This document shows, piece by piece, positions 5,401-43,849 of a DNA stretch of 64,000 bases. The stretch spans positions 6,462,935-6,526,934 of the forward strand of contig NC_058338.1 in assembly GCF_905475395.1 (NCBI RefSeq), read 5' to 3'. The position numbers were made by a program, and so were the translations under genes. The stretch comes from Chrysoperla carnea (lineage: Eukaryota; Arthropoda; Insecta; Neuroptera; Chrysopidae). How positions within the stretch are numbered: the stretch's first letter is position 1; the number at the start of each line of letters is the position of its first letter. The notes beneath the pieces are model-generated. The model was not told the DNA's origin and did not search any database. It saw nothing but the letters and a program-made list of their open reading frames with translations.

Positions 5401-5514
5401 CATGTCTTTTAATGTAAAATTTTTTTAACTTTTTATTATCTTTTGGAAAATGAAAAATCCAATTGTATAAAATCATCAATATATTTAAATATATTTCAAA
5501 TCAAGACAAGAAAA

Positions 5515-8500: not shown

Positions 8501-8969
8501 GCACTTTTCTTCTCAGAATTTTATCCTCTATCTTCCAGTCTTCTTCCAATGCCATAGTTTAAAAGTCACCTCCCCCTCCCGCCTTCGGTATACTATATTA
8601 ATGTCCAATATATTTTGATAGGATGCAATAAAATATAAATTAAATAAAAAATGGTTAATATTATCAACGAATAAAATCCGTAATCTATTATATATCTCAT
8701 CAATTGAATCTAAACATTATCCAATATGGGGTATACAATTTCATCCAGAGAAAACAATGTTTGAATGGAGTAAAGAACATTATGATCATACTATACATGG
8801 TATATTAGTATCACAATATTTAATGAATTTCTTTGTAAATGAATGTCGTAAAAATAATCAAACATTTCATTCTAAACAAATGGAATTATCATCATTAATA
8901 TATAATTTTAATTTATTATATACAGCTAAAAATGGTTGTCAATATGAACAATGTTATGTTATATCATAA
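5515..8969 (+). CDS. Gamma-glutamyl hydrolase, copy 1
   Basis: Predicted peptidase of family C26 (class I glutamine amidotransferase fold) that cleaves gamma-glutamyl tails from folylpolyglutamates and antifolates in lysosomes or after secretion. Six exons fit: 5515-5698, 5852-5978, 6212-6262, 6674-6906, 7857-7963 and 8622-8969, giving 349 residues, slightly longer than the human enzyme. The start at 5515 (AAAAATG) opens a hydrophobic N-terminus (NNTILILIFVLIINI) typical of a signal peptide; an in-frame ATG at 5443 would put a charged leader before it and is less likely. The mature domain begins near RPIIGVLSQE. The nucleophile lies in GICLGFQ (family form GTCLGFE) and the His/Glu pair in GIQFHPEK, so the active site looks complete. 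Intron 4 holds a foldback repeat. It is the upstream member of a tandem pair, and the frame is open throughout. Family call is firm; exon edges come from splice signals and comparison with copy 2. Confidence 0.9.
6985..7510. repeat. Inverted repeat inside intron 4 of hydrolase copy 1
   Basis: About 6990-7135 and 7374-7505 are reverse complements of each other: the string CCATGGTCACAAGTCATGAA in the left arm is matched by TTCATGACTTGTGACCATGG in the right. The arms are about 130-145 bases and the spacer about 240 bases, without coding potential. It is best read as a non-autonomous foldback element that landed in the intron. If transcribed with the gene it would form a long stem. Confidence 0.7.
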
Positions 8970-9877: not shown

Positions 9878-10058
9878 TATATATATACAATGATTGCTCG
9901 TTTGAATATATAAGATTTTAAGTATAAAATTTGTAAATTATTGCTATGGAAATAAAATTTTGATTTGCAAGGCACGACAAATAATTATTTACCATAAGTA
10001 AACTTTCGAAATGATTTTTGGAATAAATTAAAATATAACTAACAAAATTATAAAAATA

Positions 10059-13000
10059 ATGTTTAAATATTTTATAATAATTTATTTTTTAATATTAATA
10101 ATAATCCCGTTAAATGATACATTTCATCAAATCAATAAAAAAACGAAAACGATTAAACGTAAAGCTCAAATTGCTCAACATATTAACGAATTACATCAGC
10201 ATGGTCATGGAGAATGGCCACCATTCATGGGTCCACATAATTCACGACCAATAATTGGTATATTAAGTCAAGAAATTAGTCCACCATTAGTTAATTGTGT
10301 TCCATTTTACCTGTCGATATCCAAGTATAAATCGTACATTTCTGCATCTTATGTAAAATATATTGAAATGGCTGGTGCCCGTGTTGTACCTATCAGGTGG
10401 GTGATTTTCGAGTTTCATTTAAGGCATTTCTAACTATAAATGCGACTAAAAATAGTTTGATCATAAATTTGAAAAGTATGACCCAAATTTAGTAGGATTA
10501 CATACTTTGTTCATCAAAATTGGATAAAATTTGGATGTGATAGAGGAAAATTAAATTTTTTGGATTTTGATGACGTCATAAAGTTAAAAAATTTCAATTT
10601 TTTGATAACACAGGCAAATTTGATCCGATCTTAATGGAATTTTTTTTGAATCCCACTAATTTTGGGTCAGTCTTTATATATGTGATGTCAATTTTTCGCT
10701 AGCTATCACTAATGTGCTTAATTCAAGGACCAGGACTCCATATTCTTGAAACCTCATAAAGCTAGGTTAATTTTTATCACAAATTTGAAAAGTATGACCC
10801 AAATTTAGTAGGATTACATCCTTTGTTCATCAAAATTGGATAAAATTTGGATGAGATAGAGCAAAATTAAATTTTTTGGGTTTTGATGACGTCATAAAGT
10901 TAAAAAATTTCAATTTTTTGATAACACAGGCAAATTTGATCCGATCTTAATGGAATTTTTTTTGAAACCCACTAATTTTGGGTCAGTCTTTTTATCTGTG
11001 ATGTCAATTTTTCGCTAGCTATCACTTGTGTGCTTCATTCCGGTACCAGGACTCCATATTTTTGAAACCTCATAAAGCTAGGTTAATTTTGACCACAAAT
11101 TTGAAAAGTATGACCCAAATTTAGTAGGATTACATACTTGGTTTATCAAAATTGGATAAAATTTGGATGTGATAGAGCAAAATTAAATTTTTTGGATTTT
11201 GATGACAATTTTTTGCATAATATGGGCAAATTTGATCCAATCTAATTGAAATTTTTTTTTGAAACCCACTAATTGTGGGTTATTCTTTCCAACTGTGATT
11301 TTTGCTAAATTTCCAAATTTCGTTTTTAGACTTTAATTGCTCGTAAACTATGGAACATTTAAATTTGAACTATTATTGAGCTTAAAACTTAAATATATGG
11401 ATGTGAATAGGCTGTTTTATGATTTTTTGTTTCAGAATTGGACAATCAACACAGTATTATCAATTGATGGCGTCCTCATTAAATGGGTAAATTATTTATA
11501 TCCCTAGGATAACTATTTCCGAAAATAGACAATAAACATATTTGATTTGAACTTATACAAATTTTTAGAGTTGTTTTTCCTGGTGGAGCCGCCATGTTAA
11601 CAGCAAATGATGGATATGCAGATGTTGCAAAAATATTTTACTCGTATGCAATCAATCAAAATTTACCAATATGGGGTACATGTTTAGGTTTTGAAATAAT
11701 TCTTGTATTAAGTGCTGGAACAGATCTTCGAACACGATGTAATGTAATTAATAGTATAACAAGACCGTTAAGATTAAGAAAAGGTAAAATTATAGCTAGA
11801 AAAATTTTTTTCTTTGACAATCTGAAATGTTTTAAATTTTTCTCTTACGATTAATTCTGAATAAGTCATACACTTACTTTAGCCAGATTTTCATAAAATT
11901 TATTATTAATTCTGAAAAATTCTTCAAGAAGAGTCCAAAAATGTGTAATAATGCTTCAAACAGCTTCATAGTATTCTCATTCTTCTAGAATTGTTTTTCA
12001 GGAAACTGCAAGACTAAATAAGACTATTGGCAGAAAATATTTCCATCAGGGTAAGATAAGGTGTGGGTATGATTGTGGCTTGCGTTCAGCCAAGCATACG
12101 CCATTGCAATTCTTTTTGTGCGATTTTCTTAAGGATGTATGAGCATGGTAGTGGGGGCACAAATTTAAAAATAGATATTTTCAATTTTGATGATAAATTT
12201 ATATTATCTCTTGACGATATAAGACGAAAAGTAAGAATAAAATTTTTCGATATTTGGCTTAATTTTCAAAATATCGAAAATTGAAAATTTTGTTTAATTA
12301 TTCAGCTTTCGATATTTCGAAAACCAAGACACATATTGAATTTCATTTTTATTTTTCGTCTACATTCATGAAGTTATAACAAAATTCATCATCAAAGTTG
12401 AAAATAAGATAAAAATAATTTCAACCCTTAATCTACCCTGCTCTTACATCCCTTATATGGACGGTGACACTTAGCTTTTTTCTTTTCTAATTCATTGCTA
12501 ATATGTTTATTTTCTATTAAAAAGTTTTTTTTTAATTTGTTTTCATTCATTCCAAATGAAAATTATCAAAAACTTCCAAAATATGTCGTTTTTTTGAGAT
12601 TCCTCCATAAGAGCCAATGTATTTTATATCGATTTTTAAAGACTTTTTTCTTAAAAATTTGCACGGATATCTAAGCTGAAATTTTAACCACATATTCTTT
12701 GAGTAAAAGGCTACCTATAAACAAATTTTTAGCCTTTAAATCAAACATTGTTGTCATGCTCATACATCCTTAAGAATCGCGTCTATAACAAGAAACTGCA
12801 ACGATGTAGCACCCAAAAGCTAACATTCGTCAAGTTATAGCCGACCCTGGTGGAAAAAATATTTGAAAAAAGAATAAGTCTTAGTAAGTCTTAGGAAACT
12901 CTGAAAAAGTCTTAGAAACTTTAAAAAAGTATTAAAAACTCTGAATAACTATGAATTAGACTAGTCCGAAAACGTTGAGAAATTCAAAGTTTATAAGACT

Positions 13001-14627
13001 TTTTCAGAATTTCTTCTTCAAATATTTTTTCCATCAGGGATAGCCGAAATAATCCCCCGAAAGAGTCACTACAGATTACTAACAAATTTTAGCAACTTAT
13101 ATCACTGATTCAGTGACTACTTCAGCGATTAGAATTGTTCAAGAAGAGTAGGCAGTAAAATTTTGGTTTTCCTTTTGATTTTAGAGTATAAAGCAAGTCG
13201 AATATTTAAATTGATGCCATTAAACATATTAAATATCGTACAAAAACAATCAGTGATGACATACATGCATAGTCATTGTGTGACCATGAAGGTAATTGGA
13301 GTTCATCAATATTGATTATTATTTATTTGATTTTGCCATATGTGTTTATTCACACGCTAGCAAAAATTCTTTCCATACATATACTGGCAATTATAGCTCG
13401 TTTGAATTAATTATAACTAGTTTGAAAACTTGTAATTTTTTAGTTTTGAAATCAATTGCTCAAAAAGAGATAACAAAATTTTAAAAATTTACAGATTCCA
13501 AAACTAGAAAGTACAAGTTTGCTAATGAGTATGAGAAGATTTTAGATAAAGCCTTTTTCTTTCATAAAATGGGGGCTAAGTGAAAAAACGCATAAAATAT
13601 GGAAAATATCTTGTTATTGGCATGCTTTAAAAACAAAATTGGAAGAGTGGTAAAAAAAAATATGCAAAGGCTTACAAGAAGGTAGTTTAGGTTTTCGAAT
13701 GATATCAGAAAAATTTCAGTGTGATGATTATTTCAGATGATAAAGGATTTTAAATCCAGAAGTGTCAAATAAGTGCGATATCAAGCTGAAATTTGTATAG
13801 CTTAATCAAGACGTAAAAAGTGAGATTGGGTCTAGTAGAACAAAAGTTTAAGAGTAAATAATGTTCCTTATAAAAAAAGAAACAACTTTTGTTTGAAAAA
13901 TGTTTTCGTAAGCATCACTCTTTACCCGTGAGGTCGCAAATTAGGACAAAACTTTTGCGTCGTTTTTCTTCCAAACTATAAAAGATAGGGTATTGAAAAT
14001 CTGCAGCTAGCTTCAGCTAGTGGTCTTGTGAAACGTTCTCGATAAACGAAAATAAGTTTAGAAAGTATACTTTCGAAAAGTACCTAATACTTTTGGTGTA
14101 ATCTTAATCTTGGGCTTCAAAAACAAGATTTAATTTTGTTTATCACTTAATGCATTAAACTAATTACTACGTTAGCATGTGACTGGACACAATTTATTAA
14201 AATCTATTTATAAAGTTTAAAATATATCCGCCATTCTTAAAATTGTTAAATAATTAATTAAAACTCGACTTTGTAGAATTTCACACATCATAACATGACA
14301 AAAGATTGGTTTATTTTAACAACATCAACCACACCGAACAACTTAACATTTATATCCACAATTGAATCGAAAAAATATCCAATCTGGGGTGTACAATATC
14401 ACCCAGAAAAAGCACTATTCGATTGGACCCACACATCAATTGTACATACATTTAATGCAATTAAAGTATCACAATATTTAATGAATTTCTTTGTAAATGA
14501 ATGCCGGAAAAATCATAATCGTTTTCCATCGATGAAAAAAGAGCAAAGTGCTCTGATCTATAATTATAAATCGATGTATATTGGAAAATTCGGTTGTAAA
14601 ATTGAACAATGTTATTTTTTAAATTAA
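10059..14627 (+). CDS. Gamma-glutamyl hydrolase, copy 2
   Basis: Paralogue of the gene just upstream with the same predicted folate gamma-glutamyl hydrolase activity. Five exons fit: 10059-10396, 11436-11486, 11569-11783, 13185-13291 and 14277-14627, encoding 353 residues. The N-terminus (MFKYFIIIYFLILIIIPL) is a signal peptide, followed by a Lys/His-rich linker and the domain start RPIIGILSQE. The nucleophile motif is WGTCLGFE, the canonical family form, and the His/Glu motif is GVQYHPEK. Exons of 51 and 107 bases are identical in length in both copies, and the last exons keep SQYLMNFFVNECRKN. The first exon corresponds to exons 1 and 2 of copy 1 joined, so one intron was gained or lost after duplication. 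Intron 1 is filled by three 316-bp repeats. The frame is open; AATAAA follows the stop. Family call is firm. Confidence 0.9.
10465..11335 (+). repeat. Three tandem copies of a 316-bp repeat
   Basis: Units begin at 10465, 10781 and 11097, each with AAATTTGAAAAGTATGACCC, so the spacing is exactly 316 bases twice; the third unit is incomplete. Each unit carries TTTTGATGACGTCATAAAG (a TGACGTCA palindrome, lost by deletion in the third), TTCGCTAGCTATCACT and a GACCAGGACTCCATA-type string. The array fills most of intron 1 of hydrolase copy 2. A further one and a half units in opposite orientation lie at 41335-41797. Confidence 0.85.
12120..12780. repeat. Inverted repeat bounded element in intron 3 of hydrolase copy 2
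   Basis: A string built on CTTAAGGATGTATGAGCATG at 12120-12147 recurs as its reverse complement at 12755-12780, both preceded (outside) by GCGATT. The 600 bases between show no coding sequence. This looks like a small element with terminal inverted repeats of about 27 bases, or an intronic foldback. Confidence 0.5.
13785..13965 (+). repeat. Dispersed repeat family B, copy 1
   Basis: Contains GACGTAAAAAGTGAG, AACAAAAGTT, TGTTCCTTATAAAAAAA-AAACAACTTTTGTTT and TCACT-TTTACCCGTGAGG in that order. The same order occurs at about 44010-44170 and 48480-48710. It lies in intron 4 of hydrolase copy 2. The element type is unknown; a stretch of its interior is a weak inverted repeat around AAACAACTTTTGTTT. 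Confidence 0.6.
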
Positions 14628-18574: not shown

Positions 18575-21500
18575 TTAAACTAGTGTCGATAGCTCATGCG
18601 GTGAAATCCCACTTGTATTATTATTTAAACCCCCATTTGGACTGATACTACAACTACTCGCATCTCGTCGATGTATATTATTATAATGTCCAACACCACC
18701 CCCCGTTGTACCCCGTTCACCCAAACCTCCCCCCACTCCAGCTGCAGCACCGCCAACAGCCACTGTTAATTTACCAATAACACTATTACTACTTGTCAAA
18801 CCACCATTATTCATTAAGGACGGTGACGCAAGCATTCCACCCCCAGTGCCTCCCAATGTTGACAAGTGTGAACTATTTATCAACACACTATTATTGTTAT
18901 AATGATCATTATTATTGTTATTGGCTATTGACGAAGCATTCAATAAATTTGGATTTGTAATACTAATATTTTGGGATGTTCCATTAAAGATTTGGGTCGA
19001 TGATGCAATAGCATTTGTTTGATTATGTTGTGATTGTTGTAAGATGAATGAATTGTCATATTGTTCACGTAGCTCACGTGATTGTTCACGTAAGATTTGT
19101 GCACGTAACTTGCATGCATTGGTTTTTTCACGTTGCCATATGAACACGTTATGGACCATTGCACAACCGCAGAAGACAATACCTAAACCAATGAAACCGC
19201 TTGTCACGATTGCTGGCGTTGAATGGAATTGAATGAATGTGTACAAGATTATACCTGGAAAATGAATAAATTTTTTGTTTCAGAAAATGTAGTATATTAG
19301 GACCCTCTAGGCCAGGAAATCCAACATTTTGGCAATGGGTTTTATACTATTTTTCTGGATTTCCTAGCCGAAAGTACGGTTTATAATTTCTCAATCGTTT
19401 AAAAAATGATTGAAATTTTGTATACAAATGATTTTAAACTCCATACAAAATTACCACCTATGCTGTAATAGCAATGCTACTATGGATTGTAAAAATATGA
19501 GATTGATTTTAAAAAAAAAATACAAATTCAAGTTCTCACTTGCAGTATGTTGTGACTATTTTATTTAAATTATAATAGATAAGTGTTCAAATGATATTTA
19601 AGTTAATCGGGTACTTTTGGTAAAATTTTAGAAATTTTATCAAATTTGATTTGTTGAATTGTTTAAAAAATAAGTAATAACATTTTTTACCTGTTAAAAA
19701 TACTGGTATTGATATAAAAAATCCAGCAACTGCACAAACTCGACTTATTGATGATTTTTGTAAATATTTATTTGTCCTAAAATTAAATAAAAATGGATAA
19801 ATATTAGTAATCGCGACATTGTCTTAAACATGGCAGAACTAGACACTTAATTTAACGAAAAATGGAATAGTATTTAAAAACTTATGCAGGAAAATTTTGA
19901 CAAAATGCTTTGTGCTTATTACCCAAAATTTAGCCAAAGACATTTTTATGCCCGCCCTAAAATTCGAGAATTTTACTTCATATTTGCCATTATTTTTAAC
20001 GCCAGAATGAAAACATCAAAGTTTTATTAACCCATCTGCAATCGCGTTCTTTAATTTTAAACCTGCGTGATATTTAAATTATGTATCGAATTTGGAACAA
20101 AAATTCTTTGAAATCAAAGTTGTGATATCATCAATTCTTTTTCAGAAATTGTAATTTTAATCGATAAATTTGTACAAGGTACAGCTCAGTCAAGTTTCGA
20201 AAGTAGAGAGCCTAATATATTGCTCACTCAACGAAATGAATCATTGCTAGAGTGGAGAGTGAATTGTTGACATGAAATTACCTAACTTTTCTCTGGCTCT
20301 GACTTGATTGTTTTAGAATTTTTTTTTTATTTGCTTCCTCTCCAAAGGGGCGTAGAATACATATCGTTTTATAATACATATCGTTTTATAGTGAAACTTC
20401 TTTACGCGCACCATTAATGGCATATTACACACCTGGGGAGCAAAGAACGGCTTGGCCTCGATCCACAACTAGCATGACCGTTCGCTTAAAATCATATTTT
20501 GTGATATTTGATCCCGTCTTTCTTTTGTAGCGCCATACGGATCGACGGGTCCTTTGGAATTTTGTTTAGAACCACAAATAGAAGATTCATGCAAAAATTC
20601 TGCTTTCCGGAAATTTTTCCCAAGTTTTTAAACAGTATTATTTCGTTTTTCTTTTTGAAAAAGTTGCAATTTTGAAGAACAATCTCAAAAATCTGAGAAA
20701 TTCAAAAACATTTCGATATGTTTACTCGCAGCTTTACCTGATTTTAATCAGCACCGATATACTTTCGAGTCGCCTCCAAAGCAAAAGTAAGAAAATCGGG
20801 CAATTTCTACTTTATATTAAAATATAAATATCACTTACGCCAGTCAAATCTTACATTAAAATCGCAAAGCGTGATATAAAGCTACTTTTTCACGTATTAT
20901 GCAGGAAGCACAACTTTTTTTTGCTTGCAAAACGTCGTTTCACACTCTCCTAAGTCCAAATAACATACCCATTTTACTGGCGTAACTGGCGTTTTTTAAT
21001 AAATGAATATTTTAAATAAAACAAACATGATTACCTATAATTAAGATGAGATGCTGATACCGCAGAATTCGATGCCGATTTCACTAATTTCACAGTAAAT
21101 AAAAATTGTATTGCACAAACTAATAAACAACACAAGTTTAACGAGAGCGTTAACGCACACAATGCCAATGTCACTTCATACACCACCACATATTCTTCGG
21201 CCGTAATTAATGTTAATTGTTCAGCACGTAATATTTCACGTATATCCGCTGCCGTCACTGGTGATATTTTCAATAAAAATATTAACGATAATAAAGCTAA
21301 TAGTAAACTAATTAAACATAGTAAACCTAACGATATTAACATTTCTTTAATACCTAAATCATTTTTTAAATTATTATGATTTGTTTGTGTATTGTTCATT
21401 GTTGTTGTTGCTAATGTTGTTGATTTTAGCGGTGGTGGGGGTATTGGTGGGGATACAGCTGATGGGTGTGGTGATGGTAATGATTGTTTACTTATATTCA

Positions 21501-23769
21501 CTGGACGATCAAAAACTGTTTGGTATTTTGTTGATTGATTATGATGATGATGATTTGATAAATGTACTGAGTCCCCTCGGAGTCCACCACCAACACCGCT
21601 TGTAATACCACTAACACGTGATTGTCTTGAAATGTTTAGGCCACCATTTTTATATGATGATGGATGCACTGGGCTGATACTGCTACTTCCTCCTGAAAGG
21701 TTAAGAAAATTGGTTTTTAAAGCGGAAATTGTAATAAAATATTTTCTGGCGAAACCCAGTTAAAAAATCTTTTTCCAATTCTAAATTTTTCCAGAAACAA
21801 AATGACGGAAGGACACCGCACGATTAGATAAGAAAATGGATTTCTGTGAAACTTTTTCAAACTGTCCCCAAGATATTCTTCGGATCGTTCGGATCAAAAG
21901 CTCTCACGTGGACAAAATTTTGTAATGGATTATTTTCGAGGTACGAGCGATCAAAGTACCTATATGCCTAGGAAAATGGCTTCCTACAAAACTTTTTCAA
22001 ACCACCCCCAAGATGTTCTTCAGATTGTTCTGATCGAAATCTCTCACGGCCACAAAATTTTTTAACGAGTAGATTTCGAGCTACACGTATATTCTAGTTA
22101 TAGTACTTCTATGATTAGGAAAATGGCTTTCTGTGAAACTTTTCAAACCACCCCCAAAATGTTCTTCGAATCGTCCTGATCAAAACATATGTTATCGATT
22201 AGTGAATGTCAATTTTTTATAGCGAGGGGATTGATTTTCAACAGCTGGAGGTGATAATTATACAATTTCCTTCAAATCTTATTTTTATTTTTTGTAAGTT
22301 TTCAATAGATGGCGCTGAATTTCGATATTTCTTTATAAGAAGGAGTTTTAAGTTCGTAAAAGTAATCCGTGGATTCGAATAGTTGTATAAGGTCACATAT
22401 AGCAACCTTTTCCTCTACGAAAATTTTCACAATCGTCCGGAATTTCTCTCTTTCATAGCAAAAATTTTTAATAGTGAAAGCACATGATTTTTTTTCTGTG
22501 AACTCTCAGACCTAAAACATGATTGTGAATTTATGACTCTTAATTATTTAAAACAGTTTTATTTTTGCATGTCGGATTCAATTGATAATGACCTTGTCTA
22601 CGTCATAATGATAATAGAGACCGTTCACACGACATATCGACACCAGTAATTATTAAACCGGTTTAATAATTCCGGCTTTGAGATAGCGTGCAAATATGTC
22701 AATCATAATTCTTACGTCATTTGATAAAATTTGATTTTTATTTTCATTTTTTCGAAATTTATCGCGAATAATAATTTATCCTCTTAGAAAGTTTCAGTAA
22801 CCGACTAGATTGAAAGTAAACTTCTTTAGTAAGGCTCTCAAATTAAATTTTTTGTTTTTTTTTTTTTTGATATATTGTTTGTTATGGAAAGAGCAATGTT
22901 AAATCCAAGTTTTGGACTTCTTCAGACGACCGGGTCATTTTCAAAAATACCTTATTTCAGATTTTATCCATTTTGACCCAGAAGGACAGGTTTCTCGTCT
23001 AAATTACAAATTGTATGCAGTGGCCATAAACCTTTTCCACTCTTTTGTTTCTGGAAAAAATTTTGGATTAGGAGAAACGTGTATTTTGTTCTTTCTCATG
23101 TACAAATATGAGATTCCGTCATAAAATTTCTTTTCTTGATTCCCTAAGAGAAAGTACTGGTTTTTCGACCGCATTTAATTCTGGGAAGAGCGATTTTTTT
23201 TGGGTTGCATTTTTCTGGTTAAATAGCATAACAGCGCTTTTCGGAGTTAAATGCTGCCGGAAATACCAGGACATTAAATAAAATTGTTGGATCGCATCTT
23301 CCTAGAATCGTAATATATCTCTTATTTTTGGAAAAATTTTAATTTTATTACCTAACGAATGTTTCGATGTATTTAAAATGGTTGATATATTTAACGGTTG
23401 CTGAACATGTTGCTGATTACGTGCCGATTGTAGATTACGTTGTGATTGTCCATAACGTGCTGTCGTTGATGTCTGTGACGTATTAAAATCATTACGTGCT
23501 CCAACTAATACATTCTCCATGATTTCATCTGTTGATAACAGATGCTGTTGCTGTTGGCGTGTTAACAATAAACCGTTTCCAATTAGATTTGGTGGACCAA
23601 CATTTTGCTGTGAATGTGATGTATGTGAGGATGATATTGATAATGGTGGTGGACCACCACCACCCACACCCACTGTGGGAATCGATCCTCCACCGCCTTG
23701 TGATGTTGCTGATGTTGCTGAGGGTGTTGTCGTTGTTGTTGTTGTGGTTGTAAATGTATGTTTCAACAT
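18575..23769 (-). CDS. Four-helix membrane protein, TMEM221-like
   Basis: Four exons fit on the - strand: 23352-23769, 21035-21692, 19691-19776 and 18575-19254, giving 613 residues with all junctions in frame. The N-terminal 300 residues are low complexity (poly-Thr, Gly and Pro runs, Gln-rich stretches). Four hydrophobic segments follow: EMLISLGLLCLISLLLALL, VTLALCALTLSLNLCCLLV, VCAVAGFFISIPVFLTGII and VTSGFIGLGIVFCGCAMVH, then a charged KLRAQILREQ segment and an Asn/Gly/Ser-rich tail. The spacing of the helices and the Leu/Cys-rich second helix resemble TMEM221, a vertebrate and insect family of unknown function; this is recall of family pattern, not an alignment. No enzymatic motif is visible. 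The start at 23769 is the first Met in this frame before the poly-Thr run; upstream noncoding exons may exist. The coding assignment is sound, the family is tentative. Confidence 0.75.
21832..22200 (+). repeat. Tandem repeat, about 2.5 units of 140-147 bp
   Basis: GAAAATGG opens units at 21832, 21972 and 22119. Each continues with a CTGTGAAACTTTTTCAAAC-type string, a CCCCAAGATGTTCTTC-type string and GATC(G/A)AAA-CTCTCACG. It lies in the intron between the first two exons of the membrane protein gene. Confidence 0.65.
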
Positions 23770-28100: not shown

Positions 28101-29871
28101 AAATACCTTGGAAGGTATGTGTACCTATATCTATGTGTGTATGCTTATTATTATGGAGTTCGTGGCGAACCAAATGGTTCATATGGTTCTTTACCATTTC
28201 ATCTCACAGTAATTACACATAGATTAGTTTTTGGTAGTTTAAAAAAACCGCCAATTTATGACGTATGATACATTTGTGGCGCATTAATCTATTGCGCATG
28301 TTTACGTTTTTTTGTCGCAGCCATAATCGTACTCCATAGCTTTAGAGAGCCAGTATTGGAACTATGTTTCTTATCGCACGTAATCGTTCTGATTTGTTTG
28401 CGGGTTGGGAGATAAAACTTAAAAATGTGTAACATAACAAACGACACCAAAATCTGACCATTTTCACCTAGGTCATCAAAGAAACTAAAATTTTTACAGA
28501 GCTTAGACAAGAAGTAGTCGAAAAATGTTAGTTTTAGTTCATAAAGTCACAAAATTAATTTTGAAATTCAATTCAAAAGTATTTAGTCGCCATGTTATTA
28601 CGTCATACGGCTGTGTAAACTAAAAAATTTAAATTATAAACAATTTTTGTATTACCATACAAAATATCAGCGCATTTATTTACGCCATAACGTCATCACC
28701 ACAGAGTAAAATTTGAAAATGTCAAATTTATTGAGCGCTTTAAATTTCTCTTTTTTAACCACGAAAATATTAATCTGAATCAATCGATACCGATCAAATT
28801 TTTATGGTAAAGACTTGGGTTACCTTAAAATTTCCTCATTTTTGAAATGTTTAAATAAATGGATACTGCAAATCAAAGTGTCTCCTGAAAACTCATAGCA
28901 GAAAATATCTTATTTCACTTACTTTGTGTTCTTATAATGTCAAGGTCTATCAATCGGAAAACGACCTTCACCCATGTATAGGTATTTTATCTGTAAATAG
29001 TATGTATCTTAAGATAGATATAGATGCTGCTGTATTAAAACATGTCTATATAATATTTAATAATATTTATGTAAAATTAATTTAGATAATTACTTAATGG
29101 CCAAAAAAAAAGTTAATCTTATCACTGCTAAAAAGTTTCTTATCCCCGTTAGTCAATAGTTAAATCAATTTTCAAAAAATTTATTCCATATCTCGTACAA
29201 TAAGAAAAATTTCTCTTAAATTTTAAAGAATTTTCATAAATGAGGCAAAAAGAGCAACAAAAATTATAATACGATTTTTAATTTTTTATATAATTCTTTA
29301 TCTGTCAACGGTTTTATCAGAAATAAGACATTATTTCCACAACTGCATTTTACATTTTTATCTGCCGTTAGTCTTTTTCTGTTTTTTTCACGCCAAATCG
29401 ATTAGTTTTCTCAGCACACCTTTATGTTATTATGCAATGATTGGCGCCAATCCGAGATCACTATTAATTCTTATTTAAACAATAAAATAGAAAGTCGATA
29501 TTTACAGATAAAAGTGAAAAAAATAAAAGTAAAAAAAAAAATTTCTTTAAATAAAACAATTTTTATTTAAATACTTAAATATTTAATATAATTATATAAT
29601 AAAAATAATATAATAATGACATATTAAATATTAAATTATTCTTTTTAATCTGAAATAAAATTCAATTATAAAACGGAATAGGCAACTTTATAAACATTAT
29701 TGTAAGTGATATAACCACTGTCTGACGAAATGATGTTTGATTCTCGGTACATTCTCGGTGGGTAGTACACATTTAAAAAATAAGCTAGTGTAGCGCCACT
29801 TTCTCCAAAATTGATTGTGAGCCATTCAGGCTTCCGTACTTATACTATAACTACTACAATTAACTTATCAA
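25107..29871. other. Gene-free stretch upstream of the TMEM221-like gene
   Basis: No coding region is supported. About 26200-26310 resembles about 35690-35795 (shared GATATTTTAGAAAGA, then GTTGTAT-AA-GCAGTAAATCT, then ACAACG-GACGAATACT-like strings), so it belongs to a dispersed repeat. The rest, including 27.3-28.3 kb, is AT-rich. It may include the promoter of the membrane protein gene and the 3' end of the following gene (29.3-29.87 kb), but I see no decisive signal. Confidence 0.4.
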
Positions 29872-32800
29872 TTATTCCATAACATCTGCAGGGGAATGAT
29901 TTAAATAATCACCTTGATTACTAACATGTGGCAACTTTAAATACTTCTTATACTTATTAAACAATTTATCATTCTGATAAATCGTTAAATTCAATAGATA
30001 AGACGGTGTCATTAAATTATCATACGGTTCCAAAATAAAATCTTCTTCTGTGCTCGTCCTATTATTCATACTTTGTATTGCTTTTGGTAATTTTTTATTT
30101 TTCGTTTTATTTATTAATTTTAATAAACGTTTAAATTTATCTAAAATAAAACCAATTTCGCTTATATTATAATTATACAATAAACTATCATTATCGTAAA
30201 CAATTGTTGATAGGGGTCGTAGTGTAGCCATTGGAAGTTCGCTTGTGGTAGAAGTAAGTATTCGCATACTTCCCAAATCACCCCGATGTGCTGGTATCAA
30301 TCGTATATTCTCATTATTATTTAAGAAATCAAATTTAAATGGTGGGGAATCTTTCATAATCGATGAATTTTTATCGAACATCTGATAACGATTACTATTC
30401 TCATTTGCGTTATCACTATATTGAGGTTGCACCATCGATTTTAATTTTAACGGTTTAGTATTAATAAACGGTTCATGGTTATTAATTTCAATCACCGGTG
30501 TATCGGTTGTGGTTTTTACTTCCTGTTCTACATATTGAACCGGTCTTAAGGTCGTCGAGGATGTTAGATGATCGGATTCTTTTATTGATATTTTTAGCAC
30601 AAATGATTTATCGGTTGTTGCCTGTTGTTTACGATTCGCTAAATATGTCCGTAATTCCATACTATTTTTTAAATTACGTATTAGATTTTGCTTATTTATT
30701 TTAGTGTGTCCTACTTGTCGTTTGTCGTGTTGCGTTACTCTCAAACGAACTTTACGTGGAGTCACTGGTCTGGAACTTGTTGATCGTTCGGTTATCGCTA
30801 AATGTTTACGAAACCGTGTTTTACCAAAATGGTTATCACTATCACTGTTTGATATGTTTTCGTCAAGTTTTGTTGTTGTTTTATTTTTGTTAGTCGATGG
30901 TATATTTATTATTGATTTGTTAGTTATCGATTTATCAACAGTTGGTTTGATTGTTGTTGATTTATCAGTAACTGATTTATCAGTTTTCGATTTATCAGTA
31001 GTTGTTGATTTTCTAGCGGTTGATATATTATGGACTGATTTAACAGTAGTTGACCGATGAGTTGTGTATTTATTAATTTTATCACTATTTGATTTGTCAG
31101 TGGTAAATTTATTAATTTTGAATTTATTCTTTCCAATTCTTAATTTATGATGTGATATATCGGTTGCTGATTTAACAGTTGCTAGTTCATCAGTTGTTAA
31201 TTTATCACTTGATTTATGATGTGATTTATCATTACTTAATTTTTTTCCTGATTCGGACGAATTATGATAGAATTTATCCCTGATTGATTGGGAAGTTGTT
31301 AATTTATTTCTTGCTGATTTATCACCAAAAGTATGATTTTTATGATGGCGGGAATATTTTGGAATATTCTTCTTATAATGTAACAATATTTTCTCAGTTG
31401 TTGATTGATCATTCGTGTTATATTCACGGTAACGAAGCTGGCTTGGATCATTATCCCTATCTTCTGTTATAAATTTTATATTATCAGTTGTAAATTTATC
31501 AAGTACCGATTCTAATTCATCAGTTTCGTTTTCTGTTGTTGATTCATCGGTTATTGATTTATCATATTTATAAGTTGTCGATTTATCAGTTGCAGAATTA
31601 TCCGTTGTTGATTTATCAGTTTCAGATTTATCGGTTGATAATTTATCAATTGTTGGCCCTCCAGTAGATGTAATATGTCTACGTAAACGTCCTGTATGTT
31701 CTTTATCATCGATGGTTACAGTTACATTTATCACCAATTGTTTACCATTTTTTAAATTTTCTAGTTGATCAGTTCTATTTATCGTTTTTGGAATAATTGT
31801 GGTAGAGCTTACTCCTTCTTTGCCAATTTTTGGATAAACGTGTTTTACAATATTTTCATCATGCTTTAATAATATGGTATCATTTATTAATTTCTCAGTT
31901 GCCATTGTTGACGTATTAACTGATAATGTTTTTTTAGTTACGCTTTTAGTTGGTTTACGAAAACTAACGTGATTTTGAAAATTATAATAATTATAATTAA
32001 CGTGATCGTAATTACTTTTTAATACATAATAATCACTTGTTGATGAGTTGTTAGTTGTAGGTTTATCAGTTGTGCTAATTTGTTTACGATAACGTACATA
32101 TTGTCGATCATTATTATCACTTAATATATTATCAGTTATCGATTTTTCAGTGGTTGATTTATCAGTTGCACGTTTATTAGTTGTAATTTTTTTACGAGAA
32201 CGTACATCTTTTTTAATATTTCCATAACTTTTAGTATTATCAGTTGCAGAATCATCAATTGTAAATCTATGATTTGATGATGATACATGTTGTGTATTAT
32301 CGAAACTTCTAGTTTTATCAGTTGCAAACTTACCAGTTGTTAATCCATGATTTGTAAGATTAACTATGCGTGAATGAACATGTTGTTTTTTACCATGTTT
32401 TTTAAGATGACCAGTTGCAGATTTATCAGTTGCAGATTCATCAATTGTTCCAATGGATGATGGCGATGGATCAATTGCAATATTTCTTCGTGCATGTTGT
32501 GTATTATCAAAACTTCTAGTGTTATCAGTAGCAGATTTATCATTTGTTAATTCATGATTTGTAAAATGAACTCTACGTGAATGTACATGTTGTTTTTTAC
32601 CATGTTTTTTATTATGACCAGTTACAGATTTATCAATTGTAGTACGTCTACGATAACGTTGATCAACACTACTGTTATTATGATTTAATAAATTATCAGT
32701 TGTTGAATTATCAATCTTATAATTATCAAAATAAATATGCCTTCGTACACGTATATTTTGTTTCGAATCACCGAAATCCTCCAACAAAGTTGTCGGTTGA

Positions 32801-34354
32801 TATAAACTATAAATATTATAAAAATAAAACGATTCAAATGTAATTGTCCACGATGTATGATTAATAAATCCCATCAACGTTTTAAATTTTTGATTATTAA
32901 TCAATAAATTTTTATTCATTGCATGATTACTTGTTGAGAACATTGTATTTGTTTTATTTGAAATGTAATGATTATGATAATTCGTATGAAACCAACCAAA
33001 ATAATTAATCGTTTGTAACGGTATACGTTTTTTAAATAAACACAGATCATTATCCAAAATATATTTCTCCAGCAACATTATCGCATTCTTGATTAATTGC
33101 AACTTGTGATAATCCGATTTTATTTTCGGTATAAATTCATCAAAATGTTGTAAAATATCTTTTGCAATCGTGTAAATATTTCGTGATTTAATGAGATTTT
33201 TATGTAATAATATAAGTGTGATATTTTTATTATTATATAAGACATTTTGATTTTGAACTAATTTCAATTTGACGGCGTAAGACATACTGTAAGTTTCGAG
33301 ATATTCTACTGCTGACTTAAAAAATTGAGTATTATAATTTGTAATTCGTGGAGTGGTCGTTGATACGGCGCTTGAAATCTCAGAACTATCGCTGATTATG
33401 TAATCAACAAACGTATTTGGTGATGTCTTCGGAGTAACAGTTTTAATAGCCGTTAACCATGGATATAACAACGAATGATTTCGATAAAATAATAACGTAC
33501 AATTCACTTGACTAAAATCAATATAATTGTATTCCGGTTCCAATATTTGAATTATATAATCAATTAAAATATTATATTCTTCATTATTTTTATTAAATTG
33601 TTCTTGTTCGAGTTGCTGGAGTTGTTGTTGCTTATTATATTCATCAATATTTTTAATAAAAACCGTTGTGTTTGATTTCGGATTCAATTTTGTTTTTGCA
33701 ATATATGGATAGGTGACCGTTGGTAAGACACCATGACCTTCGTACATTTTATCGTAAAATTCCATTATCGATAGAAAGATATCGTTCATGTCATCATTTT
33801 CATTTTGTTTGAGTAAAATTTGGTTTTGTAACCATTGGTAAATGTGATTACGGACGCGTAACAACGATGCTAATTTTGTTAAGCAATACATTGAATTGAT
33901 ACCTTTATTTTTGGCTGTTTCATTTTTTACTGGTATCACTATATGTTCTTCTTCAAAATCAAATGGGACCTGATAGCTATCGAAATCATTGCTATGATCA
34001 TGCTCACTTTTTCGTTTATCTCTCAAGGTAGAATTGTTTAATTCGGCGATGTGAGAATCTAAAAAAAAAAATGTTGTTTTAACTGAAAACTCCTACCTTC
34101 TTACATACTTAAATAAAAACAAATATTCTAAACTTACGATCTGAATTGGACGATCTAAAATCATGATGATAATTTATTTTTGTATCTTTAATAGATTTGC
34201 TCAACGAATCCCTTAAAAAATGTTTAAAACATATTATATGTTGAAAAAATATAATAATTATCTGAAAAAATAATTATTAAAATTAATTTAAAAAAATTAT
34301 ATTAAAATTAATAAAAAACTATAAACTTACCAATAAATAAATTATTAAATTCAT
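29872..34354 (-). CDS. Large secreted Thr/Asp/Lys/Ser-repeat protein, unknown function
   Basis: Three exons fit on the - strand: 34331-34354, 34138-34261 and 29872-34058, giving 1,444 residues with in-frame junctions. Exon 1 codes for MNLIIYLL and exon 2 continues IIIIFFQH, so together they form a hydrophobic signal peptide split by an intron; this supports the start. Residues about 60-500 are non-repetitive, rich in Asn, Tyr and Leu, with several N-glycosylation sequons and few cysteines. From about residue 480 the chain is dominated by degenerate TDKS, TTDKSAT and TTEKS units for about 600 residues, interspersed with basic clusters (RVRRH, YRRRT, RLRRH) that look like proprotein-convertase sites. 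A long unit with KKHGKKQHVHSR and TRSFDNTQH occurs twice. The last 250 residues return to non-repetitive sequence. No known domain is recognised. Alternatives are a mucin-like, silk-like or cuticle-associated protein. The single open 4.2-kb exon makes a real gene very likely. Confidence 0.8.
30900..32700 (-). repeat. Coding repeat array (TDKS units)
   Basis: On the + strand this appears as GATTTATCAGT(T/A) blocks spaced in multiples of three and dominated by 12- to 30-base periods. Translated on the - strand these are TDKS, TDNS and TDES units. The array is diverged rather than homogenised, which argues for old expansion with purifying selection on the reading frame. The same DNA also keeps other frames open for 60-120 codons, which I regard as a by-product of the repeat. 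Confidence 0.75.
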
Positions 34355-36379: not shown

Positions 36380-39300
36380 TTAAACAATTTCATATTTATC
36401 AGTAAAAAAGACGGTATCAACAGAATGTTTAACAGGGGTCTCATCATCCACTAATAATACTTCACTCACCTGTAAATAAATTAAAAAGAAACAATTAAAA
36501 CTTATTTTAAATTTTATTACCAATTAATTGAGGGCAGGACTGTCTACATGTATATGTCAGCCTCATCCGATCGGAGGAAAATCCAAGACCATCAGATTGA
36601 AAATGTGATATTTAAAGGAGTCTCTTCATTCACCTATCTCGGAGAGCAGGTAAATAACGAAGGAAAAAACTAGCACAGCGATAAAAGAAAGACTCCAGAG
36701 AGGCAATCGAGCATATTTTGCAAATGTGAAGCTCTTGAAAAGCAAGCTGATTACAAGAAGGACAAAGTTGAAAATATACAAGACTTTGGTTCGACCAGTA
36801 ATAACCTATGGGAGTGAAAACTGGACACTCACGGTAGAAGATCAGGAGAAGATAAGAAAGTTCGAACGGAAAATAATCAGAAGAATCTATGGAGCGATAC
36901 AAATCAATGAGACAGAATGGCGTATCCGGAACAACAGCGAGATATTAGAAATCCTGGACGGTGAATTTATTGTTAAGTTCATCAAATCCCAAAGACTCCG
37001 TTGGTTTGGGCACGTCCAGAGAATGGAAGATGCCAGGATGCCGAAGAAGATACTTAACGCCAAGATCTATTCTACCAGGAAAAGAGGAAGACCAAGGCTC
37101 AGATAGATGGACCATGTGCTGGATGATTTGAGGACAATGTGAGTCACTGGATGGGGAACCAAGACCCAGGACCGCAACGTCTGGAGGCGCATTGTGGAGG
37201 AGGCCAAGGCCCACTTATTCCACTACCTTTGACAAAACTAATAAAAACAAGGATGTAATTAGTAATAAGTACTTACTTTAATATCTGTATATAATGTTGT
37301 AGGTGATGTAAATTGAATTTGAATTGGATAGAAATCATTTGGTTGTGAATGCTGACAATTAAATTCCAATGCACCTGATTTATTTGATGAATCAATAATT
37401 GGTATGTTCCATATTAATTGATTTTTACGTCCATCATGGATATATTCACCATCACATTCATTTATTATTGGTGTAACACCATTACTAAAACATAAAACAA
37501 ACAAAAAAACCATTAAATAAATCATATATCAGTAGTTCATAAGATTCTTGATCTTATCACTCGAACTTAGGTTAGTGAATACTTACGGTAATGGTATAAC
37601 AATTGTAACATCAGATAATTCTAATTGTAAGTGTTCTAATTCATATTCTATGTTAACATCACAACTGTTTGTATCTTGTGATTCAGTTGGCCAACAATTA
37701 ATAACTAACGGTAATAACGATTGATAATTATCTGAATCTGTATTTTGTGTGGTATTTGTTAAACGATACTTTAATACACCAACGTCTGTGTTCAATGGAA
37801 ACGGTTTCTGTTGATTTTTTAAACCAATCTGTGATTTTAATTTAAATAATTCTTTATCAACATTTGGATGTGTCTAAAAATCAAAAACAAAAACATTTAT
37901 TATTTACTATTTATTTTATCAAGGATTTGGAACATATAAAAACCGTGTCATGTCGAATAAATTCGGAACAAATTGAATGTAAAATTTGTGTAGCCTTGAA
38001 TTATACAGCACGTAGATAACGATACAAATAGGTTTTTAAAATAAAAAAATGACTTACTTGTAATTGTATGCCCTTGGTATCAGTGTTATTGTTATCAATT
38101 TTGATGCGTACACGTGCATAACGTTCATTTTGTATACGTAATGTTAATAAACCTAATAATTCAATACCAATAATGCCACCATCACGTGTTAATTTTATTA
38201 TCATTCGTTCTTCTTGTCTTAAATGTACACTGAAACACAAACATACACAAATATTTGAATGAATTTTTGTTGACTTTGAGTTGAGATATTATTATTGAAA
38301 TAAATACCATGATACTCGAAATAAAAATGGATTCCTTATTATACTTTTTAATGAAATTTCGTAATATACAATTTTATTTTGAATATATTGTTGGTATTTA
38401 TTTCAATAACTATATAAATATTCAGTAAACACTCTATATATTTTATATTAATATACCAGGTGTTTACTATAAAATGTCACAAGTATAAATAAAAAGGACT
38501 TAAATATCAAAATGTGATTCCGAATTTAATATAATCTGTTCTACAACTTCATTCTAAAAATAAATATAGGTACAATGGAATTACTTACTCTTGCATGTTA
38601 TCAGAATGAATTGTACCAGATCTGGATCCACCAGTTGATATTAACGTTTTGTTATTCTGTTGTTGATTTAATGATGGCTGCGTTGATGATTTATTTAATA
38701 AGTTTGTTGATGTAATGTTCTCACCTTCACTCTTTAATTGTGCAACAAAACTATCAACATCACGTGTTTTACTTCCAAGCTTCATGCCACCACGTGTACC
38801 ACCTGATGTAGCTGTTGGGCCTGTTGTTGATACTTTCCTGAGGAAAAAATTAACATTCATTTAATATTAATACACTTTTTAGTCAATAAAATTAAGGTTC
38901 TAAGGAAAAATCCTCACTTTGGAGGACTTCTGCGCGTGAGTCTGACCTAGATAAAGGTTTAACGACTACACTACTTAAATAAATAATTAATAAATACTAA
39001 CTGTATGGTGAGATAATTATTCTTGTCACTTGAATCGTTGACGTTATTACTAATAATGGTATTATTACCAAATCCACCAGATGAGGATGACGATGTGTAA
39101 TTTGAACGTGGTGTACCTTTTTTAGCTGCTTCAACCCGTGCACGCTGTAATTCTTTTGCTTTTTCACGCATCTTTATTTTAGCTTCACGTTCTTGTGTCT
39201 GTAATAAAATCGATTTTCATTAAAATTAAAAGTTCAATATAAAATTTTATTTTAAAAGAAAATGACACGATTACTACTGACCTGTCTTACAGCTTGATAT

Positions 39301-40939
39301 ACTTTTTCTTCATGCGAATCCATTTCAACGAATGTACGAATTTGTGCTAAATTCACACTTTCACGATAACCAAGTGCAACGATTTCATCAAATGCGAATA
39401 TTAATGAAAATGCATTATCGATTACTTCTGATTCTTCCATAGTATGGCAATATTCTGGAATCTATAGAAAAAAAGACGTTAATTTCTGAGTTAATGGTCT
39501 GGCCAAGGCAAAAACTCCATGCCAGTAGATTCTTATGGGAACCCCATAAAGTGGAACAGAAGTATCCAGGTTCCGGACACCATATTTTCTTTTTTTAACA
39601 TTTGGAAAAAACTATTGGATTTTATATTATGAACATTTGTTAATCCCCGAACCAAAAACAGGGGTGCTATAAGTTTGAAGGTAACAAGGTGGGACTGAAA
39701 ATCAACGAAGGAAAAACCAAAGAGTTGAGAATAAACAACGCCAACAGCGAAGATCTTATCATTAAAAACCAACCCATAGAGCGTGTACGACAGTTCCAAT
39801 ACCTCGGAAGTATTGTTTCTGAAAACGGCAGCCTAGAAGGGTGGGCCGACCTCAACATACCTGGCGAAGAACTCTGGAGCAAGAAATTACCGAAGAAGGC
39901 AAATCCTGGGGAGAAGTCAAGTCCATGGCACAGAATCGAGTTCGTTGGCGAGCATTTGTTGAGGCCTCGGTATCATAGGACATAAATATAAATATAATAT
40001 AAGTTTGACCGCTATGTGTGTCTGTCTGCGGCATCGTAGCGCCTAAACAGATGAACCGATTTGAATTTTTTTTGTTTCGTTTGAAAGATAATTTAATGGA
40101 TTTAATGGTGTTCTTAGCAATGTTTCAAGTGCGAGTTTAGGGTTCTATACCCGGGACAACTAGAAAATAGGCCATGAACCTCAAAGAGGAAAAGGATAAT
40201 TAAGGATACGTTTCTTAAATGCATGCTTGTGTACAAATAACCAATCAACTACTAGCGTAAATCGTACTAATCGAAAACCAATAAAAACGGTACTTACCAC
40301 TCTCGAAAATAACCGTAACGTTTCTAAATCCTCCAAAATATTACTGGCTTTTGTTGTTATCAACAACATATATAATTTTTCTAATGGCTGATATACATAA
40401 CGTACTGAATCGGTTTCAACGAATGTATGTTGTTTACCAGTTGACATTAATTTCGGAAATGCAGCTAATAAACCTTCAATACGAGCTTTGGTCATTTCAA
40501 CAAACTGTCTCGAGACAATTGCTATATATAAACAAAAACGGTATAAATTAACACAGAATTCTACGTGTAGAAATTCGAAGAAAGATTTTTACTTACTTTT
40601 ACCAACTCTGGTGGTAACAGCTGCGGCGATCAACACCTATAAATACAAAAAAATTTTCATTTTTCAAACGTGCCCAAACAAAGTTTCACCACTTGGTAAT
40701 TCGAGAGATATCTTATATTCGTAAAAGGGATTGTTATTCGGGTACGTAATTACAAGGTAAATGGTGAATAAAAATTAAGGGGTAAATAAAATTTGACATA
40801 GGTTGAAGAACACAGACTGGGACGCCCTTACAAAATATTACATATATTATGCATTTTTATAAAGTTAAGAAGCTTCTAAATTTAGTGTAGCATTAATGTA
40901 TGGAATTTAATCTAAAAAATATTGATAGATAATTACCAT
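36380..40939 (-). CDS. deltaCOP: Coatomer subunit delta (delta-COP, archain)
   Basis: Subunit of the COPI coat, which drives retrograde Golgi-to-ER and intra-Golgi transport; the delta subunit has an N-terminal longin domain and a C-terminal mu-homology domain. Ten coding exons fit on the - strand: 40937-40939 (the ATG alone), 40597-40636, 40298-40521, 39282-39461, 39002-39198, 38589-38837, 38058-38229, 37587-37873, 37277-37484 and 36380-36469. They give 549 residues (human about 511), all in frame. The N-terminus [20 protein letters not shown] and the C-terminus TDKYEIV match the family pattern, as do [11 protein letters not shown] and [10 protein letters not shown] in the mu-homology domain. 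The extra length lies in the linker (residues about 150-300), which has Ser and Gly/Asn runs. Two introns carry retrotransposon remnants on the opposite strand. The gene is divergent from mRpL47. Identification is firm; the one-codon first exon is inferred from AAAATG followed by GTAAT. Confidence 0.93.
36535..37240 (+). mobile_element. RTE-like non-LTR retrotransposon fragment in delta-COP intron 9
   Basis: On the + strand the reading [13 protein letters not shown] is followed by [36 protein letters not shown] and IVEEAKAH. This is the known order of motifs at the C-terminus of the endonuclease-reverse transcriptase of RTE-like and related insect LINEs. One frameshift near 36670 and one internal stop at 37105 show it is dead but not very old. 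The 5' part, with endonuclease and most of the polymerase, is missing, as usual for 5'-truncated copies. It lies antisense to the host gene. Confidence 0.85.
39640..40155 (+). repeat. Dispersed repeat family A, copy 1 (interrupted)
   Basis: The family opens with CCCCGAAC-AAAAA-GGGG, a short hairpin, then TGCTATAAGTTTGACCGCTA, a GTCTGTCTG-type run, GGCATCGTAGCGCCTAAAC and GATGAACCGATTT, and ends after AGTGCGAGTTTAGGGTTC. Here it is split by the RTE-like insertion at 39679-39998. Other copies are at 47436 and, reversed, at 49225. Confidence 0.7.
39679..39998 (+). mobile_element. Truncated RTE-like insertion with target duplication in delta-COP intron 3
   Basis: On the + strand [16 protein letters not shown] and [13 protein letters not shown] are reverse transcriptase thumb-region motifs; after a deletion the frame resumes in sequence resembling [11 protein letters not shown], the usual C-terminus. 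The 3' end is a short ATAAAT-type tandem tail. Both sides carry the 10-base direct repeat ATAAGTTTGA (39669-39678 and 39999-40008), a convincing target-site duplication. The insertion splits a copy of dispersed repeat family A. Confidence 0.85.
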
Positions 40940-42123: not shown

Positions 42124-43849
42124 ATGTCGTTTATTAAAAGTTGCACACGATTATCAAAACATTTAACACAATTAGTACAAAATAATTATAATTTATTAGG
42201 ATTTTCATTTAAGTAAGAAAATTATACTTCTCTTGGGTTTTATCTGTTTGAATAGTTCTAATTTAATTTTCAGAAATAACCTATTACTCCCGAAAAATGT
42301 TCGAACAATTCATACAACATCAATGAACAATGATTTAATGGAATTTTTCGATGATAAAAAGAATTGGAATCAAAGTGAAGTGAAAGTTGGACGATCATGG
42401 CGTACAGATGAATTACGATTAAAATCAAATTCTGATTTACATAAACTATGGTAAACTCACAGAAAAATTTAAAAGTTAACTCCCAAAATTAATTTGTTTA
42501 AATTTCTAGGTACGTGCTATTAAAAGAACGTAACATGTTATTAACAATGGAATACGAAAGTGCTGAAAAAATGAAATTATTTCCAAATCCTGAACGTTTG
42601 GATAAAGTAAAAGAATCAATGGAGAATTTAGAAACAGTTGTACGAGAACGTAATCAAGCATACTTTTTATTAGAAACAGGAGAAACTGGTGAACGGCCAC
42701 GGAAATTAGCACGAAATGTTTTTGGACTTCATTATAATTATAGGTAAATTTTTAAGGAAAGGGCAATATGTACCCTTTTAATTTCTTTTCTCGCTAGCTG
42801 GAACGTCCATACGTTCGTACGTTCGTGTTGGTTGGGATTAAAATTCATCGAGAGTTATTTTCTGTGACGCCGAGCCAAGACCAATGGCCGCCTTATGAGA
42901 CCCCTTTTGCTAGCTTCGCTGATAAATAAATGCCGAAACGTTCAGTTTATTTAAATTACCAATAGGGAATATTAATGTATTTTTTTTTATATTTTTAATT
43001 CATTGTTTACACCGTTATAACAAAGTAAAAAATATAAATACTGCTTAAAAATGTTGTATTTAAGTGTAAACAAATATTTAAAATACATTATAATTTTGAG
43101 ATATTTAAACGCACTTTTTTGGCGTTCTCTGTTGATGACATATAAGTACGTGATCTGTCAATTGGTGACAGTTCAATGTATAATTTACACTTTAAAAAAA
43201 TGAATTTACAACACAGAATTTACACTCGTTATTATTAAGTTTTCTAATAAAAAGCCGTAGAATAGTATAATTTAATGAAATATCATATAAAATGTAAGTA
43301 ATTAATATCATACAGTATGTCAACAAATTTGACAAGCCCGTACTTTGATGTCACGTCCGTATACAAATTTGAATTTCCGTTTTAGAAATATTTAAATGCC
43401 CTCCTTGAATTTGTAGTTTTATTAATTAATTTTAAGTAATTAAAAAGATATTAATTACTAAAATAATGGTTTAGTTGAAATGTCCAGTCATTAAAGTTGA
43501 TCGACCAAATTTAAATTTCATGAATATTCCCTATTAATTTGTAATATTGAATTGTATTTGTTCTAGGATGAGTGAACATGTCATACCAAAATTTATGAAT
43601 ACATCATGGAAAAAGAAAATGTATTTTTATAAACCAAATATGGCTGTATCGAAATTTTTACGATTGTATCGTGAAAAATTATTTAATGAAAAACGTAAAA
43701 AACGTAATCGTGATTTTAATCATGTCGTACAATTAATTAAACGTTTTCCAAATTTGGATATGAATGCGGTCCGTGAACAATTCCCTAGTGTGGATATCGA
43801 GAAAGCGAAAAACCATAATAGAGCACGAGGCCATTCTGTACCTACTTAA
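42124..43849 (+). CDS. mRpL47: Mitochondrial ribosomal protein L47 (uL29m)
   Basis: Component of the large subunit of the mitochondrial ribosome near the peptide exit tunnel; nuclear-encoded and imported. Four exons fit: 42124-42212, 42274-42450, 42510-42743 and 43567-43849, giving 260 residues with in-frame junctions. The first 45 residues are rich in Lys/Arg/Ser/Thr and lack acidic residues ([18 protein letters not shown]), as expected of a mitochondrial targeting peptide. The family signature [32 protein letters not shown] and [15 protein letters not shown] of the uL29m domain follows, then [11 protein letters not shown] further on. Length agrees with the animal family. The 823-bp third intron is AT-rich with no recognised element. 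AATAAA lies at 43913. The gene is divergent from delta-COP. Confidence 0.95.

Follow-up and report, generated by a model that had tools for sequence, protein, structure and literature searches.

The window, by which we mean the whole 64,000-nucleotide stretch of DNA that was analysed, carries on its minus strand a gene of three exons with GTAAGT donors and CAG/TAG acceptors; spliced together, they encode 1,444 residues and a TAA stop. This model agrees in its coordinates with the preliminary description of the locus, which had proposed three exons, a last exon of 4.2 kb and a product of 1,444 residues. Its parts are as follows:

34331..34354, minus strand: exon 1, encoding MNLIIYLL, the first part of the putative signal peptide; donor GTAAGT in phase 0, with an A at position -3 of the ATG
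34262..34330, minus strand: intron 1, 69 bases, GT-AG, interrupting the putative signal peptide
34138..34261, minus strand: exon 2, 124 bases, encoding the remainder of the putative signal peptide and the first residues of the mature protein
34059..34137, minus strand: intron 2, 79 bases, GT-AG, with an 11-T tract
29872..34058, minus strand: exon 3, from the last two bases of codon 50 through residue 1444 and the stop
29562..29567, minus strand: AATAAA, about 300 bases downstream of the stop and possibly a polyadenylation signal, weak as evidence since the word is common in the AT-rich DNA here

The last exon sits within a stop-to-stop frame of 1,406 codons, an open run with a chance of about 1e-54 at the local base composition, and the other five frames contain 85 to 260 stops each. 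A codon-use score trained on nine neighbouring open reading frames—seven with a Pfam match and two chosen by eye—was best in the gene's frame for all four parts scored, namely exon 2 and the N-terminal, middle and C-terminal parts. For the latter three it was positive in that frame alone; for exon 2 it was negative in every frame (-0.14 in frame versus -0.34 to -0.54 elsewhere). Judged from its sequence, the locus is an intact gene, probably from an insect, whose protein product is large and looks secreted. A tblastn search for a second copy elsewhere in the window returned three rows outside the locus (best E 2.6). Antisense to part of the gene, an open frame of 162 codons lies on the plus strand at 30572-31060, probably as a by-product of repeat composition.

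Residues 1-19 form a hydrophobic leader, which intron 1 divides. A splice scan of the 5' end, which applied fixed simple rules on donors, acceptors and intron length, yielded exactly one model, and its leader is signal-like. Among control sites from non-coding parts of the window, a signal-like model was found in 34 of 1017 acceptor-by-frame cases, a figure that counts cases without any model; per case with a model the support weakens, to 34 of 313 controls with any model and 10 of 196 with exactly one. Hydrophobic N-termini thus arise easily in this AT-rich DNA, and we consider a signal peptide likely, short of certain, at about the 5-11% level. The proposal that a signal peptide is assembled across an intron therefore stands as regards a hydrophobic N-terminus, divided by intron 1 in the sole 5' model, and falls short of proof as regards its function, given that 10 of 196 single-model controls look equal.

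Downstream of the leader, the protein was divided into regions whose bounds we drew ourselves, with the borders between head and tail placed at matches to the furin-type motif RX[RK]R:

Residues 20-65, minus strand: segment from the end of the leader through RDKR, bounds likewise drawn by us
34012..34023, minus strand: RDKR, residues 62-65, candidate pro-peptide cleavage site
32740..34011, minus strand: residues 66-489, non-repetitive, 38.9% ILVFMYW, taken as a predicted folded domain
32740..32751, minus strand: RVRR, residues 486-489, candidate furin site at the start of the repeats
30562..32739, minus strand: residues 490-1215, low complexity, with 25.3% S+T, 18.5% K+R, 11.6% D+E and a net charge of +50
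32647..32658, minus strand: RYRR, residues 517-520, candidate furin site
32494..32634, minus strand: first copy of a 47-residue block, residues 525-571
32287..32427, minus strand: second copy of this block, residues 594-640, identical to the first at 37 of 47 positions
31678..31689, minus strand: RLRR, residues 840-843, candidate furin site immediately before the strongest TDKS array
30877..31659, minus strand: five-residue TDKSx array, residues 850-1110, period 5 (z 9.4), seen by TRF as 15-base periods in the DNA
29875..30561, minus strand: residues 1216-1444, C-terminal region, without a TDKS array

The head (residues 66-489) and the tail (residues 490-1215) differ in composition: hydrophobic residues (ILVFMYW) fall from 38.9% to 21.3%, and all three cysteines outside the leader (residues 108, 236 and 389) lie in the head. 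Tail residues include no cysteine and little glycine (2.6%), alanine (2.3%) or proline (1.8%). A repeat between the two halves of the head was unsupported (197 of 300 shuffles were as good), as were similarities of the head to the C-terminal part (147 of 300) and to the first half of the tail (25 of 200), and of the C-terminal part to the second half of the tail (134 of 200). A non-repetitive N-terminal region and a distinct C-terminus, both previously described, are thus borne out, the former by the lack of a repeat between its halves and the latter by the lack of both a TDKS array and similarity to the head. Structure prediction of the two ends, which the preliminary description had recommended, was uninformative on fold: AlphaFold, run on the single sequence without an alignment, gave a mean pLDDT of 34.5 for residues 51-545 and 34.9 for residues 1128-1444, so that no fold is established for the head.

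Exact TDKS occurs ten times in the protein, always between residues 593 and 1198, compared with 0.1 occurrences in shuffled sequences. The repeats are real, as had been claimed, but they do not amount to some 600 residues of TDKS units: strong periodicity is confined to approximately residues 850-1110, and across residues 490-850 period 5 is weaker (z 4.0) and longer periods of 69, 95 and 26 score higher. Self-BLASTP of the protein returned no off-diagonal rows, and repeats were detected by diagonal scoring, in which the two copies of the 47-residue block reached 194, whereas none of 60 shuffles scored above 87 (the highest value among them). Sequence is also shared between both halves of the tail, at a level that no shuffle out of 200 equalled. 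Around the 47-residue block, dN and dS were 0.18 and 0.20 over 49 codons and 0.15 and 0.18 in an overlapping comparison of 38 codons, and a 21-codon pair at offset 95 gave 0.45 and 0.55; in these blocks, which are short (21 to 49 codons), the two rates nearly agree, which argues for little protein-level constraint within the repeats. For eleven basic boxes, leave-one-out scores of the flanks exceeded all 1000 flank shuffles; with the recent duplicate removed, the sum (-40.1) was barely above the best of 1000 shuffles (-40.3). It is suggestive that basic boxes and TDKS words may form the two halves of one composite unit, a grading that reflects the choice of the eleven anchors by eye and the overlap of adjacent segments.

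Candidate processing sites gave a divided result. Plain dibasic pairs, on which the preliminary description had based a general argument for cleavage, occur at chance (31 observed versus 31.7 expected, sd 4.5), and with them that argument falls. The stricter motif RX[RK]R is instead in excess, with four observed versus 0.36 expected, although four was also the maximum over 500 shuffles; RxR is found ten times versus 2.8 expected, with a largest shuffled count of eight. Starting at residues 62, 486, 517 and 840, the four strict sites bound stretches of 424, 31, 323 and 601 residues; since the domain bounds were themselves drawn at these sites, the coincidence of sites and borders is no independent evidence. 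N-glycosylation sequons were near expectation (33 versus 27.1, sd 4.4).

Searches for relatives returned no significant match in Pfam for the whole exon 3 frame or for three parts of it, the best rows, PF23220 (E 0.024, 15.0 of 27 bits) and PF15428 (E 0.086, 13.6 of 23.3 bits), lying below their curated cut-offs. PHROGs likewise gave no significant match for the N- and C-terminal parts (best E 0.043). Among PDB sequences, the whole exon 3 frame produced no row at E 1 or less, and neither the N-terminal part (best E 0.92) nor the C-terminal part (best E 0.12, a kinesin) matched significantly. Pattern scans of viral contigs found two stretches with the N-terminal part and six with the C-terminal part, and a scan of prokaryote genome contigs with the N-terminal part found 13, none of which was confirmed in either case. 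These searches speak against known domains and not against insect orthologues. A literature search for a TDKS repeat in insects found none. The search of the unique ends that had been suggested earlier was thus negative in Pfam, PHROGs and PDB sequences, and the wider picture of a secreted, repeat-built, possibly processed protein that matches nothing in these family libraries is consistent with our results.

Two of the affiliations offered in the preliminary description found no support. Silk fibroins have Gly/Ala-rich crystalline repeats, whereas residues 490-1215 contain 2.6% Gly and 2.3% Ala, and the label silk-like has no basis in composition. The silks of caddisflies and midges are secreted proteins with Ser-rich charged repeats, including the phosphoserine silk of caddisflies, and the gene shares with them the predicted secretion and the charged, S/T-rich repeats; it differs in a tail without cysteine and with little Gly or Ala, in the lack by eye of long (SX)n arrays, and in its long non-repetitive head. 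As for a cuticular protein, no cuticle or chitin-binding family was among the Pfam rows returned. Mucin or PTS domains are rich in Ser and Thr with substantial Pro, whereas the highest S+T of the seven stretches measured, 30.3%, comes with 1.7% Pro; with sequons near chance and 1.8% Pro overall, the tail is not a typical mucin domain.

Similar in layout are the Drosophila glue proteins, in which low-complexity repeats that evolve fast lie between a signal peptide and a distinct C-terminus (PMC6352337). According to the same source, the signal peptide of Sgs1, Sgs3, Sgs7, Sgs8 and Eig71Ee is interrupted by a phase 1 intron, and the proteins reach 2245 amino acids, with a conserved C-terminus and rapidly diverging repeats that are often Thr-rich, Sgs1 having 12-18% Pro (PMC6352337). 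The gene resembles Sgs1, Sgs3, Sgs4 and Eig71Ee in its internal repeats and its putative signal peptide, which is split by an intron as in Sgs1, Sgs3 and Eig71Ee. It departs from the Sgs family in that intron 1 follows 24 coding bases in phase 0, and in a tail of 25.3% S+T, 1.8% Pro and 18.5% K+R in place of Thr/Pro-rich repeats; a long non-repetitive N-terminal domain also appears to be absent from the glue proteins as that source describes them (PMC6352337). Baramicin, a less close parallel in layout, is described as a secreted precursor with repeats between RXRR furin sites, which part related peptides, three of 23 residues among them (PMC8423362). Unlike Baramicin A and other tandem-peptide precursors, the protein considered here has four strict sites that delimit mostly long and dissimilar segments rather than similar short peptides. 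The statement that no family has this layout was accordingly too strong, given the similar layouts of glue proteins and Baramicin, although the tested features of both were lacking. The gene fits a familiar kind, that of repeat-built secreted proteins without recognisable domains.

The best explanation, to which we give a probability of roughly 0.4, is that the protein is secreted and processed by furin, that it combines a folded head with a charged, disordered tail, and that it works in a secretion or in the extracellular matrix. The predicted signal peptide would direct the protein into the secretory pathway, where a furin-type convertase probably cleaves after RDKR (residue 65) and RVRR (residue 489), separating a head of about 424 residues, the putative folded domain, from the long S/T-rich tail with its net positive charge; further cuts in the tail may follow at RYRR (520) and RLRR (843). 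Duplication of the composite unit, in which TDKS-like words follow a basic box, may have lengthened the tail, which would be constrained little beyond its composition and open frame. Most likely the tail would serve as a spacer or a sticky segment, hydrated and charged, which might also be glycosylated or phosphorylated, acting perhaps in a gland secretion, saliva, glue, an egg coat or the extracellular matrix. Should the fold of the 424-residue head turn out to be conserved and the tail be cut at its basic boxes, the gene would offer a useful example of a structured domain gaining a self-duplicating disordered tail. It is among large secreted proteins with fast-changing repeats, which homology searches tend to overlook, that insects have evolved new glues, egg coats, salivary factors and peptide precursors.

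That tendency bears on a second reading, possible but doubtful, under which the gene belongs to a known insect family but has diverged too far for domain libraries to recognise it; salivary, glue or reproductive-tract proteins carrying a rapidly evolving repeat insert would be examples. A search of Pfam by itself is coarse, and many lineage-specific genes are claimed to be explicable by failure of homology detection (PMC7660931). Among the weak Pfam rows are Drosophila ACP53EA (E 2.7) and DUF4820 (E 0.66), neither anywhere near significance. Against it stands the lack of any significant match in Pfam or among PDB sequences for the parts searched.

An unlikely reading makes the product a polyprotein from which many small bioactive peptides are cut, with a basic cleavage box per composite unit, as in Baramicin, apidaecin and neuropeptide precursors. 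The design is already known in insects (PMC8423362), and the excess of RX[RK]R and RxR, together with the common flanks of the basic boxes, would suit it; yet only four strict sites occur in 1,444 residues and plain dibasic pairs are at chance, the segments between boxes vary in length and sequence (one recent duplication excepted), and dN is close to dS between copies. A more far-reaching version, which we consider quite improbable, is a new kind of insect polyprotein in which a folded head is joined to a tail cut at the composite basic boxes into charged, S/T-rich peptides with a role in defence, signalling or host manipulation, evolving by unit duplication. Finally, that repeats and AT-rich composition merely keep the frame open, with no expressed gene, is scarcely credible: the lack of a homologue in the libraries searched and the open frame antisense to the repeats would agree with it, but the frame also stays open through the non-repetitive ends, over more than 400 and more than 200 codons, the codon-use score singles out the gene's frame in the N-terminal, middle and C-terminal parts, and GT-AG introns link that frame to a start codon and a hydrophobic leader.

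The surroundings of the gene resemble nuclear DNA, which we read as insect from its gene content; GC is 21-38% in 2-kb steps across the window, which also contains a tRNA-Cys and, on the plus strand at 42502-42747, MRP-L47. On the minus strand, an adaptor-complex medium-subunit domain (37583-37873) belongs to what we take to be a delta-COP gene. Two plus-strand open frames, at 36654-37106 and 39644-39985, look retroelement-like by eye and gave no significant Pfam match; the latter lies near opposite-strand pieces of the delta-COP-like gene and is perhaps intronic. Pieces of a Jiraiya-family gene lie on the minus strand at 21031-21759 and 18575-19279, and a 140-base tandem repeat at 21832-22185 (2.5 copies, 76% match) adjoins one of its exons. 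Glutamine-amidotransferase-like open reading frames, presumably gamma-glutamyl hydrolase-like, lie on the plus strand at 8622-8969, above the Pfam GATase cut-off, and at 11546-11854 and 14277-14627, below it. They apparently represent two tandem copies of one gene (5413-8969 and 10032-14627), each with a hydrophobic N-terminus by eye, and a 316-base tandem repeat at 10456-11206 (2.4 copies, 94% match) appears by eye to lie in an intron of the second.
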